Virus record (IMG/VR): IMGVR_UViG_3300047496_000308
Span: 1-26,057 of that record
DNA from: a virus
Direction: 5' to 3' (one strand)
DNA length: 26,057 bases
Below are positions 3,807-26,057 of this stretch, one piece after another. The notes under the pieces were generated by a model, which saw only the letters and a list, made by a program, of their open reading frames with translations, ran no database searches and was not told where the DNA came from. The position numbers were made by a program, and so were the translations under genes. The stretch's first letter is position 1. Each line of letters starts with the position of its first letter.

Positions 3807-5432
3807 TCACTGTTGTTTGTCAGGTTGAAAGATGATTGCGCCGCCAGCTGTACTCATCAATCCGGCGATACTGACTGCGTTTTCAAGTGCAGTCCGAGTG
3901 ACTTTAACCGGGTCGATGATGCCAGCTTTTACAGCGTCTACGACTTTTTTATTGCGAGCGTCGTAGGTCGAACCGGGGTTCCGCAAGATCTCTTCCGAGA
4001 GCGGCACGGCTTTCTGGAAGTCAATCCCCACGTTCTCGAGGATTTGAAAGAAGGGCGAACACAGGGCCGCCTTCAAGATGCGGTCCCCGATGCGCTCGTC
4101 GCCCAAAGAAGCTGCAATTCGAAGTAGAGTCACGCCGCCACCGGGAACGATTCCTTCTTGAATTGCTGCTCGGGATGCGTTTAGAGCGTCCTCTATGCGG
4201 TCGTACTTCTCTTTGATCTCAAGTTCGGTTATGCCACCGACACCGATTTTAGCCACTCCGCTGGTCAATGCCGCGATGCGGTCGTTGAAGATGGAAGCAT
4301 CGTAAGGACTCTCGGCTTGGGCCTTCTGAGCCTTGAGTTGGTCCACACGTTCCAAGATGGCGTCTTCGTCGCCTTGGCCGTCGTAAAGTGTAGTTTTGTA
4401 CTTGTCGACTACGATTTTGCCCACGAATCCGATGTCTTCTTCTAGCGCTCCAGCCAGCGTTCTAGCCCCGTTTCCGAGGCGAGTTGCGCCGGTGTAAACG
4501 GCCAAGTCGTCGTAGTATCCAGTCCGGATGTTGGTCGTATGAGGTCCCTCGACCAAACAAAACTGCATGCCGCGCTCTACTTTTTGAATCAACAAGAACT
4601 GCATCACGTCGCGACTGAACTCGTTGGCGACGAACACGACCGGGGGCATTTTCTTCGTGGGTTGACCTTTTTCGTCCAGACCGACCAAATAATTGAGTAC
4701 TGGGATTACGTCGGTGAAGTTCAAGATTTTACCGTCGAATAAGACGATCGCGGCGTTCTCAGCTTCGAAGTGGGTGCGGTCTTTGTTGTTGAAGAAGTCC
4801 GACCGAGACTGTGCACCTTTGTCGAATCGATACCCGTCCACGACTTCGAGAGTCACTCCGGTGCCGGTTCCTTCATCGACCGTAACTACACCTTCAGCTC
4901 CGACGTGGTCGAAAGCTTGCTTGATGATCTCACCAATAGAAGTGTCTCCGTTGGCCGAAATCGTGGCAACTTCAGCAATCGCGCGCATGTCTACCACCGG
5001 AGTAGCTACCTTTTTCAGTGTCTCGATGACGTCTCTAGTGGCTCGTTCAATCTCTTCTTTGACGAGTTGTGGGTTTAGTGTGGGGTCTTCCAACAAAACT
5101 CGTTGGGCTTCTTGCAAGATCGCTTCGCCCAAGACGATGGCCGTAGTCGTACCGTCGCCCGCGTCCGTGTTAGTCTTCCGACAAATCGCTTTGACTGCTT
5201 GGATGACGACGTCTTCTATTGGGTCACTAGAGGCGCACTCTTCAGCGACCGAGACTCCGTCTTTGGTGATTTTGGGTCCCAACGGCGAACCGTCTAGTGC
5301 TTGTCCGACGCGTTGGATGATGATGGGAAGACCGCCGGGACCGAGAGTCCTCTTTACGATGGCGGCGAGTTTCTTCATCCCCGAAGCCTTCGAGGCTAGC
5401 AATTGTTCGGCAGTAATGATCTGTTTTGTCAT
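3807..5432 (-). CDS. groEL: Phage chaperonin GroEL (HSP60)
   Basis: A 541-residue group I chaperonin that folds proteins in an ATP-driven double ring. Seen: equatorial TLGPGG at 29-34, ITKDGVSVA at 55-63, nucleotide-binding DGTTT at 93-97, and the family signature with ASRAAIQEGIVPGGG at 419-433. D415 matches the ATPase Asp398 of E. coli GroEL. Start chosen at 5432 because AGAGGA precedes it; a longer frame would run through the promoter box. Odd points: an extra segment around residues 40-52 next to the nucleotide site, a diverged apical region (the GFGDRRK segment is replaced by HTTNIRT at 298-304), and no C-terminal GGM repeats. No GroES gene is seen. GroEL genes are known in a few large phages, including Pseudomonas phage EL. 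Helicase lies divergently. Confidence 0.95.
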   Translation of the reverse strand: MTKQIITAEQLLASKASGMKKLAAIVKRTLGPGGLPIIIQRVGQALDGSPLGPKITKDGVSVAEECASSDPIEDVVIQAVKAICRKTNTDAGDGTTTAIVLGEAILQEAQRVLLEDPTLNPQLVKEEIERATRDVIETLKKVATPVVDMRAIAEVATISANGDTSIGEIIKQAFDHVGAEGVVTVDEGTGTGVTLEVVDGYRFDKGAQSRSDFFNNKDRTHFEAENAAIVLFDGKILNFTDVIPVLNYLVGLDEKGQPTKKMPPVVFVANEFSRDVMQFLLIQKVERGMQFCLVEGPHTTNIRTGYYDDLAVYTGATRLGNGARTLAGALEEDIGFVGKIVVDKYKTTLYDGQGDEDAILERVDQLKAQKAQAESPYDASIFNDRIAALTSGVAKIGVGGITELEIKEKYDRIEDALNASRAAIQEGIVPGGGVTLLRIAASLGDERIGDRILKAALCSPFFQILENVGIDFQKAVPLSEEILRNPGSTYDARNKKVVDAVKAGIIDPVKVTRTALENAVSIAGLMSTAGGAIIFQPDKQQ

Positions 5433-5450
5433 GGGTCCTCTCTCGGGAAT

Positions 5451-5480
5451 AGTATACTGCAACAAAAGTTAAGTTGTAAA
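5451..5480 (-). promoter_or_regulatory. groEL promoter candidate TTTACA-18-TATACT
   Basis: On the minus strand, TTTACA (5475-5480) and TATACT (5451-5456) are separated by 18 bases; each matches the sigma-70 consensus at 5 of 6 positions. The implied transcript starts about 12 bases before the groEL ATG and includes its AGAGGA ribosome site. The 13-bp motif CAACTTAACTTTT lies inside the spacer. Confidence 0.55.
5464..5476 (-). repeat. 13-bp motif CAACTTAACTTTT, copy 1
   Basis: Read on the minus strand this is CAACTTAACTTTT, identical to 5727-5739 on the plus strand. The two copies face outward, one toward groEL and one toward the helicase. This copy falls between the -35 and -10 boxes of the groEL promoter candidate, a typical place for an operator. 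Confidence 0.5.
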
Positions 5481-15467: not shown

Positions 15468-17549
15468 TTAGTTCATCTTCTCGATCATGATGCGGTTGTT
15501 CGAGTTGGTCTGAATCGCTGCATCGTTGGCGTTCGCGGTATGTGCGATGTAGACGTCGATGGTATCACCAGCTCGACAGTCGAAGAAGATCTCACCCGAC
15601 AAAGCCGCCGTCGTGCTGGACGCCGTTTGCTGGAAGATGAACTGGTCCAACAAAGCCGAGGAAGAAGAGCTACCCAGTTGTTCGGCCGATAAGTTAATGG
15701 CACCACCGACGGCGGTAGCCGAAGACGCACCACCCATAGTTTGCAAGGCTGAGACTTTGTACAATCCGGCTACTGGGCAAGTGAATCGTCCAGTCGCGGG
15801 GTTGTAAGCCCCGTGGGTGTCGATTTGCTTGACTTGAAATAAGATTCTCTGGTTGGCCGTCGTCACCGTCAGAGCCGACGGCGAGTTGTACGAACAGACG
15901 ACCTTCTCTGAGGCCGCGATGGACTCAGGTCCCGCGAGTCGATTGATCTGAAAGTAAGTGTTCAGCGCGTTGCCCGAGAGACTTAAGGTGCCGCCCGAGT
16001 TTTGGTACGTTATGAGACCGATCAAGTCCCCGACCTTGCAATAAACCGTAGCTTCAGACCTGACCACGATTCCGTTCGTATCCGTGGGGAACGGGGCAGT
16101 CGTAGAAACTGACCCGCCGTTCTGAGTGATGTCTAGTTGGCGGTACCCGCCGACTGCACCGGAGTACTGAATTTGGGCGAAGATGGAGTAATAACCCGGG
16201 ACTTGGACTACGTAGCCGTTCGAGCCGGCGTTGAACCCACCGTGGGTGTCGAAGGTAGCCGAGTCGATTAAGACCGTCTTAGGAGAGCCACCTTGCGTAA
16301 TGTTTTGGTTGGTGCCCAAGTAAAACCGACCGGTAACGACCCGAGTCGAAGCGTCTTGCGACATCTGGACGTTGGACTCCCAACCGAGGATGGGAACCAT
16401 CGCTTCGAAGGAGTACTTGAGACCAGTCGTCGTGAGCTGATAATTGGTGGATGTGACTTGACCCTTGGCGACGTTGTTGTTGCCGATCTCAATGGATAAG
16501 TGCGTAGCATCCCAAAGCTTTACGGCACCCCATAGGTTGTCCGTGGCAGTCCCGACTTGAGCGGCTCCGACGGTACCACCGTTTTGTCCGCCGTCCGGCA
16601 ACAAGGTCGAAGTGTCGCACACGTAACCCGCCGGAAGTGGGAACAAGTAAGTCCCAGATCCAGCCGCCGCTCCAGTCGCTGACGAAGCGGAGTATTCGTA
16701 GTGGACGTACATGTACTTGCCGAACCTAGCCCAAGTAGCGTTGTCGGTGTCCGGAGTAGTCGCCTTAGTCGGGTTGGACACCGAACCGATGATTTGCAAC
16801 GGATAAGCGACCGGCGAAGTGACCGGAGCTCCGAACTCCAAGACTTGGGGACCGACCACGACGTTGTCGAACTTCAAGGCCCAAGCTAAGGTATTCGTGG
16901 TGCCGACGAACATGATGAGACGATAAGACGTGGAGTTCGAGGCGGTCTGGAAGTTCCCCAAGAACCGGTAAGACCCCGAACCGTTCCCGGTCAAGACGTA
17001 AGGAGCGGGCTGAATGACCACCGCGTTGGTGACGTCGTAGATCCACATCGTGACGTCGGAAGCTTGGAGACTCGGTCCTTGACTTCCGCTTTGGAAGACG
17101 CCCGAGGAAATAGTGTAGTCGAAGGAGACGTCCAAGATCTTGGCTCGGTCCGCGGCGTCGATGGTGAAGTCGAAGGACACGCCTTCGCCTTGGGCTGACG
17201 TAGAACCGGAGTTAGACAAAACGAAGGAATTAGTACCGCGGAGGGGAGAAGTGCCAGAAGTCGCGATGCTCAAGTGGGTAGCTGAACCACCCGTCCCGTC
17301 GGCTGGAGAAGTCGCCGCAGCGTCCTTGAATAAATTCCATCCGGACGTGCCGCCGTCGGCGTCGGGATTGGTTATGTAGTTGATGCCGGCAGAACCGGAA
17401 CCGAGGCCTTTCCAGAGCGAGCCTTCGCGGAACTGCCACTTGGAGAGAGCGGAGGAGTAGTAGACGTCGCCGTCGTTGGGACTCGAGGGAGTGCCCGACT
17501 GAGGGGTGAAGAAGATGCCTTTAGCGACTTTCCAAAAATTCAGAGCCAT
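15468..17549 (-). CDS. Tail-fibre/receptor-binding protein with two C1q-like modules
   Basis: 693 residues, Gly/Ser/Thr/Asn-rich, typical of phage fibres. Residues 1-50 carry a YYSSALSKWQFREGSLWKG segment common near fibre N-termini. Residues about 58-235 look like a jelly-roll carbohydrate-binding module (NYITNPDADGGTSGW at the start, FDNVVVGP at the end). Two tandem C1q/TNF-like modules follow, near 405-535 (FDTHGGFN, VPGYYSIFAQ) and 545-693 (IDTHGAYNPATGRFTCP, AGLYKVSA). C1q-like heads form trimers and bind ligands. Likely role: a trimeric adhesin tip. It lies between a coiled-coil gene and the endolysin. A GGTACAAT box is 47 bases upstream, so it may have its own promoter. Confidence 0.8.
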   Translation of the reverse strand: MALNFWKVAKGIFFTPQSGTPSSPNDGDVYYSSALSKWQFREGSLWKGLGSGSAGINYITNPDADGGTSGWNLFKDAAATSPADGTGGSATHLSIATSGTSPLRGTNSFVLSNSGSTSAQGEGVSFDFTIDAADRAKILDVSFDYTISSGVFQSGSQGPSLQASDVTMWIYDVTNAVVIQPAPYVLTGNGSGSYRFLGNFQTASNSTSYRLIMFVGTTNTLAWALKFDNVVVGPQVLEFGAPVTSPVAYPLQIIGSVSNPTKATTPDTDNATWARFGKYMYVHYEYSASSATGAAAGSGTYLFPLPAGYVCDTSTLLPDGGQNGGTVGAAQVGTATDNLWGAVKLWDATHLSIEIGNNNVAKGQVTSTNYQLTTTGLKYSFEAMVPILGWESNVQMSQDASTRVVTGRFYLGTNQNITQGGSPKTVLIDSATFDTHGGFNAGSNGYVVQVPGYYSIFAQIQYSGAVGGYRQLDITQNGGSVSTTAPFPTDTNGIVVRSEATVYCKVGDLIGLITYQNSGGTLSLSGNALNTYFQINRLAGPESIAASEKVVCSYNSPSALTVTTANQRILFQVKQIDTHGAYNPATGRFTCPVAGLYKVSALQTMGGASSATAVGGAINLSAEQLGSSSSSALLDQFIFQQTASSTTAALSGEIFFDCRAGDTIDVYIAHTANANDAAIQTNSNNRIMIEKMN

Positions 17550-24230: not shown

Positions 24231-24320
24231 ATGAGATGCCCAAAATGTAGGTTGCCGGTGATCGCGGGGTTCTCTTATTGTCCGCACTGCGCTGCGAAGG
24301 TTAAGAGGACACAAAAATGA
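24231..24320 (+). CDS. Zinc-ribbon mini-protein, 29 aa
   Basis: ATG at 24231, TGA at 24318-24320 overlapped by the next ATG. It reads MRCPKCRLPVIAGFSYCPH and on to a basic tail KVKRTQK. CPKC and CPHC pairs make a minimal zinc ribbon. The ribosome site (GAAAGAA) is weak. Acceptance rests on the clear motif and the ATGA link. Confidence 0.5.
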   Translation: MRCPKCRLPVIAGFSYCPHCAAKVKRTQK

Positions 24321-24490
24321 TGAGAGAATGCATTTGTTGTCAGTGTTCAGAACACGCTGTCGGATACGAACCAGAATACTTCCAGTGCGAGTCGTGCGAT
24401 CTCTACGGCACCAAGGACGACTTCGAGGACTCTGAGACAGTTTGTTGTTCGTGCGTTGAATTTCATTCCACTCAAAAGGAGAAGGCATGA
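24317..24490 (+). CDS. Cys-rich zinc-binding protein, 57 aa
   Basis: ATG at 24317 (a second ATG follows at 24320); AAGAGGA lies eight bases upstream, and the stop overlaps the next gene's ATG. Cys pairs at CICCQC, CESC and CCSC give at least two possible metal sites in 57 residues. The remainder is acidic (GTKDDFEDSE). No named family. Confidence 0.6.
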   Translation: MMRECICCQCSEHAVGYEPEYFQCESCDLYGTKDDFEDSETVCCSCVEFHSTQKEKA

Positions 24491-24852
24491 GCTTAGATGT
24501 TTATCTTCATATTGAAAAGGGAACCGAAGATTGTCCGCACTGCGCGCAACCGTACGCTGCGGGCGAGACTGTCTTCGATGCCAACATCACCCACAATTTG
24601 AGTAAGATGGCCAGCGAAGCTGGGATATACGAAGCTTTGTGGCGTCCAGATGAAGTTGGTATCATGAAAGCCGCGCAACTCATAGCTCCACTCGCCGAAG
24701 GATTGGCTAAAATGAAAGCCGACCGCGAGCATTTCGAGAAGTTCAATTCGCCTAACGGTTGGGGGATGTACGAGAACTTCGTGCCTTGGGTAGAACGGTA
24801 CTTGAAGGCTTGCACGGAGTATCCAGAGGCCTACGTAACAGTATCGAGATAA
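24487..24852 (+). CDS. Conserved phage-type protein of unknown function, 121 aa
   Basis: Good AAGGAG site and ATGA overlap. The segment VFDANITHNLSKMASEAGI followed by EALWRPDE and later NGWGMYENFVPWVERYL is a pattern I know from small uncharacterised proteins of phages and their hosts. A CPHC pair lies near the N-terminus (EDCPHCAQPY), with no second Cys pair. No function is established. It ends 14 bases before the COQ7-like gene. Confidence 0.7.
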   Translation: MSLDVYLHIEKGTEDCPHCAQPYAAGETVFDANITHNLSKMASEAGIYEALWRPDEVGIMKAAQLIAPLAEGLAKMKADREHFEKFNSPNGWGMYENFVPWVERYLKACTEYPEAYVTVSR

Positions 24853-24865
24853 CTTGGAGTCTTAA

Positions 24866-25324
24866 ATGAGTGAAGAACGAGCCAAGCTCATCCACATGTT
24901 GCGGATAGCTCACGCTATCGAAGTGGGAGCTTATCACGCTTACGAGGGTCACTGGCGGACTATAAAACCGACCAGTAATCCCCGTCGTCTGGACATCCGA
25001 ATCATTCAGATGGAAGAACTAGGACACCGCGCTTCGTTGTTGGCTATGCTCAGACTGTTGAACGCGCGTCAATCGTTCTTCTTGGACTTCGCAATGTGGA
25101 TGGTCGGGTGTGGAGTGACTTACGCGTGTTACGTATCACCCAAGTTCGCTACGGACTGGGGCGCCAAGATCATGGAGACGTTTGCGGTCGCACAGTACGA
25201 TACTTTGGCGGCGTTGGCCAACCGCAACGGGTTGTTCGAGATGGCCAGAATCTTGAGTGCGATGGAAGTAGCTGAGAAGAGACACGAAGAGTTTTTTAGT
25301 CGGAACTCGGCGCGTCGTCGGTAG
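24866..25324 (+). CDS. COQ7-like ferritin-superfamily diiron protein
   Basis: 152 residues. The start LRIAHAIEVGAYHAYEGHW follows the COQ7 pattern (LR..HAGE.GA...Y.G). Candidate metal ligands are E19, E51-x-x-H54, E104 and E137-x-x-H140, the E..ExxH..E..ExxH set of four-helix diiron proteins. Between the two pairs lies a hydrophobic stretch (FFLDFAMWMVGCGVTYACY), like the membrane-surface helices of COQ7. COQ7 hydroxylates a quinone precursor in ubiquinone synthesis; phage homologues have no known role. Other ferritin-like oxidases or rubrerythrin-like scavengers remain possible. GGAG precedes the ATG. Its end overlaps the convergent gene by 29 bases. Confidence 0.7.
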   Translation: MSEERAKLIHMLRIAHAIEVGAYHAYEGHWRTIKPTSNPRRLDIRIIQMEELGHRASLLAMLRLLNARQSFFLDFAMWMVGCGVTYACYVSPKFATDWGAKIMETFAVAQYDTLAALANRNGLFEMARILSAMEVAEKRHEEFFSRNSARRR

Positions 25325-26057
25325 AGATGTAAGGGTTGTCGATGATGTACTTGTAGGTCGGCGCCAAGATGTCGAAGTCCACGACTATACCCGCCGCAGC
25401 TAGGGACGCCAGAATCTCTTGCACGATGCTGCGAGCGCCCGCTGGTGAAGTCAAGTAAATCGCGAGGTCGTGCCCGTCTTTGTTCGGAGTGAACGAGTTC
25501 TTCGAAGAAATTACGTTGATTACCTCGCCCGCAGCGTGGTCGTGTTCGAACACGTAACTGGGATCGATCAGAATCGTATTCGAGTTCGGTACTCCGCGGT
25601 ACTTGATGGGAACTTCTTGGGTGTTTCGACCAAAGTTCAGCATGAATGTGCCCGATTGAGCTTGGAGTAACGCCGTACTAGAGACTGTGAGACTCGTCAA
25701 GACCGAGCCTCTGGAAATCGTTTGATTCAACGTCGCGACTTGACTCGTTACAGTGAACTGCCCTTCCGATCCGTCTGGGTTGAAGAAGAAAGAACCAGCC
25801 CAAATGCCGTTGGCTGTAGGAACCGGAGGCGACAACGTCCCGTCCGTGTGAAAGTGGTGCGAGCCCAATAAAGTTCGGCGGACCACCGGAACGATAGCCG
25901 GAATCTCAATCAATAAATTATTGGGTGTAATGTTGTAGACCACGACGCGTTGAGACAAGTCCAATATGTCGACTTCACCCTCGGTCAAGTCCAACTTCAA
26001 GGACGAGACCAAGGTCGAGGAGCTCTGAATGTTGAGAGCTCCAGAAGAACCCGGAGT
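25296..26057 (-). CDS. Probable virion structural protein, 5' end outside the window
   Basis: The frame is open to the right edge; TTG at 26012 is one possible start, but codons up to 26057 continue without a stop, so about 253 residues of a longer protein are visible. The sequence is beta-rich and Ser/Thr/Asn-rich (VEVDILDLSQ-like acidic start, NITPNNLLIEIPAIVP, HFHTDGTLSPPVP). A DPSYVFEHDHAAGEVINVI segment and a GHDLAIYLTSPAG segment follow, and it ends DDAPSSD. It resembles baseplate or fibre C-terminal parts by composition only. It converges on, and overlaps, the COQ7-like gene. Confidence 0.65.
   Translation of the reverse strand, partial: TPGSSGALNIQSSSTLVSSLKLDLTEGEVDILDLSQRVVVYNITPNNLLIEIPAIVPVVRRTLLGSHHFHTDGTLSPPVPTANGIWAGSFFFNPDGSEGQFTVTSQVATLNQTISRGSVLTSLTVSSTALLQAQSGTFMLNFGRNTQEVPIKYRGVPNSNTILIDPSYVFEHDHAAGEVINVISSKNSFTPNKDGHDLAIYLTSPAGARSIVQEILASLAAAGIVVDFDILAPTYKYIIDNPYISTDDAPSSD

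Follow-up and report, generated by a model that had tools for sequence, protein, structure and literature searches.

A phage clade of COQ7-like diiron proteins separate from COQ7 proper, with a possible role in oxidant handling

Introduction

COQ7 is a diiron hydroxylase of ubiquinone synthesis, and its set of glutamate and histidine ligands is also that of bacterioferritins and other ferritin-like proteins, so that the ligands by themselves are not specific to COQ7. In the literature, no earlier description was found of COQ7 in phages, of COQ7 together with PerR, or of COQ7-like proteins in Acidobacteria. Here, a gene for a COQ7-like protein was analysed in a 26 kb IMG/VR virus record (IMGVR_UViG_3300047496_000308; the whole stretch of 26,057 nt is hereafter called the window). 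The original prediction had proposed a phage-borne COQ7-like diiron protein, possibly altering the quinones of the host. The protein was compared with its viral and bacterial relatives, with COQ7 itself and with other ferritin-like families.

Results

The gene lies at positions 24866–25324 of the + strand and encodes 152 aa, with a likely ribosome-binding site read from the sequence (GGAG, 24856–24859, +) 6 nt upstream of the ATG, and no open frame was found on the opposite strand over the same positions. The open reading frame, its HAIEVGA motif (residues 16–22) and the six ligands were recovered at exactly the coordinates and residues first given. Immediately upstream, a phage protein of 121 aa without assigned function (phrog_4019 by phrog match; 24487–24852, +) ends 13 nt before the diiron gene, and the two genes are probably co-transcribed. 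Relatives of this phrog_4019 protein were observed at 53 IMG/VR loci. The same + strand cassette includes a small Cys-rich open reading frame of 57 aa with a weak phrog_2855 match (24317–24490, +), and a convergent open reading frame without family match (25296–26057, −), cut by the end of the window, shares 29 nt with the 3′ end of the diiron gene. Among the other genes of the window were those of a T5 A1-like protein, GroEL, dCMP deaminase, a DNA helicase, a dNMP phosphatase, an exonuclease and a tail fibre, in agreement with the phage setting originally assumed. The GroEL gene occupies positions 3807–5465 (−), and another GroEL is encoded near the diiron gene of a different viral locus (L068:10387–11760). 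Moreover, a protein having C1q-like and BclA_C-like domains, predicted to belong to the virion or the tail, was observed at 15468–17549 (−).

Searches with the window protein as a single sequence in the IMG/VR, phage, plasmid and GTDB collections returned no relative. Relatives were reached only by means of a two-row bait alignment, made of the window protein and a reconstructed sequence modelled on a bacterial COQ7-like protein; the latter was used for finding only, its own Pfam result was set aside, it was absent from the later alignments, which consisted of real loci alone, and no conclusion depends on it. A total of 13 viral loci were obtained by scanning IMG/VR with the bait alignment, and 59 loci by scanning bacterial genomes with the alignment rebuilt from real loci. 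The bacterial relatives belonged mainly to the Acidobacteriota, with others in the Planctomycetota, Chloroflexi, Actinomycetota, Rokubacteria and further groups. The final family alignment comprised 49 sequences. The pattern used in the bacterial search included AYxGH, so that the invariance of His29 is partly built in; it did not include the ligand columns, Cys88 or Tyr111. Annotations of COQ7 in phage records were rejected as host genes, appearing in Wolbachia DNA beside prophage WO and in Acinetobacter contigs labelled as phage, and a weak COQ7 match in another contig (G017) was dropped, as it concerned an open reading frame of 132 aa with a likely transmembrane helix at its end. The records MN180249.1 (L132) and CAKLQH020000004.1 (L133) carried COQ7 annotations amid host genes and appear to contain bacterial chromosomal DNA.

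The Pfam family COQ7 (PF03232) was the only one above its curated cut-off for the window protein (28.6 vs. 23.5 bits, E = 1.3e−6), with a match spanning only residues 8–76, and it was also matched by 47 of the 49 family members at E ≤ 0.1. In the family alignment, E19, E51, H54, E104, E137 and H140 were invariant in all 49 sequences. Since Pfam COQ7 lies above its gathering threshold and all six ligands are kept in every relative, the assignment of the open reading frame is more than chance. According to the alignment with 7ssp, these residues correspond to E60, E90, H93, E142, E178 and H181 of human COQ7, with ligand spacings of 30–34/3/50/30–33/3 (12 of the 49 family sequences) compared to 30/3/49/36/3 in the human protein. 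On the DNA (all on the + strand), the codon of E19 on helix 1 is at 24920–24922, those of E51-x-x-H54 on helix 2 at 25016–25027, that of E104 on helix 4 at 25175–25177, and those of E137-x-x-H140 on helix 5 at 25274–25285. Helix 3, a hydrophobic crossover helix by both model and hydropathy (residues 71–90; 25076–25135, +), contains Cys88, which is found in all 49 members and is replaced by T or A in COQ7. The hydrophobic mid-section originally described was thus recovered, with a mean hydropathy of 1.23 for residues 70–91, the equivalent segment of human COQ7 showing 0.78.

Using the family alignment, AlphaFold modelled a ferritin-like bundle (pLDDT 94.6, pTM 0.89) with helices at residues 3–32, 39–64, 71–90, 92–120 and 124–151, while the pLDDT was 48 without the alignment. 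Alignment, model and Foldseek together gave a bundle with E, ExxH, E and ExxH on successive bundle helices. The top folds found by Foldseek were YciE/YciF-type stress proteins, bacterioferritins, Dps-like proteins and COQ7, with YciE in first place (TM 0.80), other ferritin-like proteins next and COQ7 in 18th place. In the profile search of solved structures, however, human COQ7 (7ssp) was the best match (E = 2.3e−6), and hhalign paired the family with five COQ7s at 94.7% over 136 columns. Hence, the objection that the best match might be to another ferritin-like family was upheld for the fold and failed for the sequence profile, and the description of a COQ7-like diiron protein stood. On the model and the alignments, membership of the ferritin-like diiron carboxylate fold class is well supported, with a two-iron site predicted from the alignment with COQ7. 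The role is much less certain than the assignment of fold and family.

The Pfam match, the profile match to human COQ7 and the hhalign pairing would also fit a true COQ7-type quinone hydroxylase by which the phage alters the ubiquinone pool of its host, and so would the COQ7-like spacing of the ligands and the hydrophobic crossover helix. Nevertheless, the COQ7 equivalog NF033656 (DMQ_monoox_COQ7) did not match the window protein at E ≤ 10, and it was matched weakly by 26 relatives, the best at 6.8e−6. Two residues present in five out of five COQ7s, the Gln after YxG and the His at E+6 (human H148), appeared in none of the 49 family members, the window protein having H29 and Q110 at these positions; Cys88 and Tyr111, in turn, were invariant across the family. 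In the maximum-likelihood tree, the family, including the window protein, was split from the five COQ7s at 100/100, a separation involving long branches and a small COQ7 sample. Furthermore, COQ9 was detected in none of the 32 bacterial genomes with relatives (the Caulobacter control being positive). MenD gave no guidance, being above its cut-off in only four of these 32 genomes, some of them having the futalosine-pathway gene mqnE instead. Menaquinones are the major quinone in the Blastocatellia genera listed in PMC12816986, and the bacterial relatives are mostly in menaquinone lineages. A hydroxylase acting on ubiquinone is therefore very unlikely, and the part of the original prediction that concerned ubiquinone synthesis was not sustained. 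The family, here named AYxGHW, is related to COQ7, separate from COQ7 proper and apparently uncharacterised, with a bacterial branch of about 160–200 aa and a phage branch of about 145–156 aa with a shorter C-terminus.

Regarding the bacterial gene neighbourhoods, a Fur/PerR-type regulator was found divergent from the diiron gene, 87–129 bp apart, in loci L075, L114 and L116/L128 of one Acidobacteriota clade, and the catalase-peroxidase KatG was directly divergent from it in three other loci of the same clade (L076, L079 and L123). In addition, locus L078 had KatG tail-to-tail with the diiron gene, followed by a Fur/PerR-type regulator. The NCBIfam matches to KatG were above the cut-off; PerR was the best match of the regulator, yet below the cut-off. 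A near-perfect palindrome, TTAGAATAATTCTAA, which we take to be similar to a PerR box, appeared in the shared intergenic regions of the PerR/KatG-linked loci and, in L078, upstream of the regulator. A total of nine matches to it were found in the loci, seven of them just upstream of the diiron gene, whereas shuffled loci gave 0.8 on average. Moreover, the diiron gene was located directly behind msrP-msrQ, the genes for the repair of oxidised methionine, in locus L097. As bacterial relatives stand beside peroxide-defence genes, oxidant handling appears likelier than ubiquinone making. However, only one Acidobacteriota clade shows the linkage to PerR and KatG, which may reflect hitch-hiking synteny, and the palindrome may serve the regulator and the catalase alone.

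In another subclade, the diiron gene was placed behind mqnE, the menaquinone gene for aminofutalosine synthase, and ahead of an LpxL-like acyltransferase gene, a competing hint to quinone or lipid chemistry. This setting favours a diiron oxygenase acting on some other substrate, be it a lipid, a modified nucleoside (as with MiaE) or a menaquinone-like quinone, and so do the hydroxylase activity of the COQ7 relatives, a weak MiaE_2 match in three members and the position of two phage copies (L069 and L072) near nucleotide-metabolism genes. On the other hand, the MiaE matches are marginal and no consistent substrate-pathway neighbour emerged in the whole family or among the phage copies, so that an oxygenase of this kind seems possible, though rather unlikely.

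The window protein and six other phage copies, all with a short C-terminus, formed a single clade in the maximum-likelihood tree (100/98). These copies were located on contigs of up to 170 kb, in several phage lineages and at differing genome positions. Contig G058 (L070) shared with the window an A1-like protein (41%) and a large tail protein (47%), L060 had only the tail region in common (42%), and L062-type contigs had no A1 match to the window. The diiron gene adjoins large − strand genes in L062 and the window, and lies near NrdA/NrdB in L072. Such variety of position and lineage fits a mobile cargo gene, whose role would be useful but dispensable. Apart from this clade, a short viral contig carried a bacterial-type copy with a long C-terminal tail (L071:3307–3843), which was nested among bacterial sequences in the tree and which we interpret as a separate acquisition. 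About 0.8 kb from that copy, a TIR-domain-like protein with a weak Thoeris-family match was observed (L071:1782–2516). A further observation concerned a downstream protein common to L069 (6428–6901) and L072 (3341–3796), containing the sequence FLAGSIEMGKA and resembling nucleoside deoxyribosyltransferase by eye; the L069 protein had no NCBIfam match.

In L072, NrdB and NrdA were found about 4 kb downstream of the diiron gene, which would suit a ferroxidase or iron-handling protein similar to bacterioferritin or Dps, storing iron or delivering it, for instance, to the ribonucleotide reductase of phage or host. The ligand set is that of bacterioferritin, and the bacterioferritin and Dps folds rank high. 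Nevertheless, the crossover segment carrying Cys88 is conserved and resembles that of COQ7, in contrast to ferritins, and the window shows no ribonucleotide reductase, making such iron handling unlikely. In the stretches read beside the phage copies, no recognised oxidative-stress gene was found. Neither was rubredoxin found in the phage records, so that nothing points to an electron donor of the rubrerythrin type.

Discussion

The most likely reading is that the window gene encodes a phage-carried diiron oxidoreductase that reacts with H2O2 or O2 and protects the infected cell, a proposal that we regard as about evenly balanced between right and wrong. In such a protein, E19, E51/H54, E104 and E137/H140, provided by four helices, would form a two-iron site, and one more helix, hydrophobic in nature, would cross the bundle. 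The diiron site could then act on H2O2 or O2 as a peroxidase or oxidant scavenger, with a reductant from the host, and the removal of oxidants might shield the DNA of the infected cell, the replication of the phage and enzymes that depend on iron, for instance ribonucleotide reductase. Iron occupancy, peroxide as the substrate and the retention of the bacterial role by the phage copy are inferred. In favour of oxidant handling count the invariant ligands, the ferritin-like model, the PerR/KatG setting with its palindrome, the msrP-msrQ neighbourhood and the phage clade; against it, COQ7, which is a hydroxylase, is the closest by sequence, and one subclade is linked to mqnE.

A bolder proposal, which we consider improbable, is that both the phage clade and the related bacterial proteins act as membrane-associated, quinol-using diiron peroxidases or oxidases. 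The COQ7 scaffold would in that case have been re-used to spend quinol electrons on peroxide detoxification, and the invariant Cys88 of the hydrophobic crossover helix would be involved. Hints in this direction come from the hydrophobic segment shared with COQ7, from the setting beside PerR and KatG, and from mqnE and msrP-msrQ as neighbours.

Overall, a clade of phage proteins of the COQ7-like diiron type has been defined and set apart from ubiquinone synthesis, and an annotation ending at the Pfam COQ7 name would lead to false 'phage ubiquinone genes'. If oxidant handling is the true role, several different large phages would bring along a diiron enzyme for handling oxidants, and the bacterial peroxide-stress proteins of the Acidobacteriota and other phyla would gain a further family.

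Compared to described systems, COQ7 (PF03232, NF033656; PDB 7ssp) is alike in the order and spacing of the ligands, in the hydrophobic crossover segment and in being the best sequence-profile match. It differs in that the family of the window protein forms its own clade, with His29 in place of Gln, Cys88 in place of Thr/Ala and His148 missing, with a short C-terminus in the phage copies, and with no COQ9 detected in the genomes of the bacterial relatives. YciE/YciF (DUF892, PF05974; PDB 3ogh and 2gs4) are stress-associated ferritin-like bundles and provide the best fold match (TM about 0.8), while the window protein stays below the PF05974 cut-off (18.9 vs. 23.7 bits) and matches in its C-terminal part only. 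Rubrerythrin and sulerythrin (PF02915) share the helices of the diiron bundle and the proposed peroxide chemistry, with matches in 39 of the 49 members, whereas the window protein is below the PF02915 cut-off (14.8 vs. 22.8 bits) and is devoid of the rubredoxin domain of rubrerythrin. Finally, bacterioferritin and Dps resemble the window protein in fold, and bacterioferritin also in the type of ligands, but the family of the window protein differs from both in keeping the COQ7-like crossover helix.
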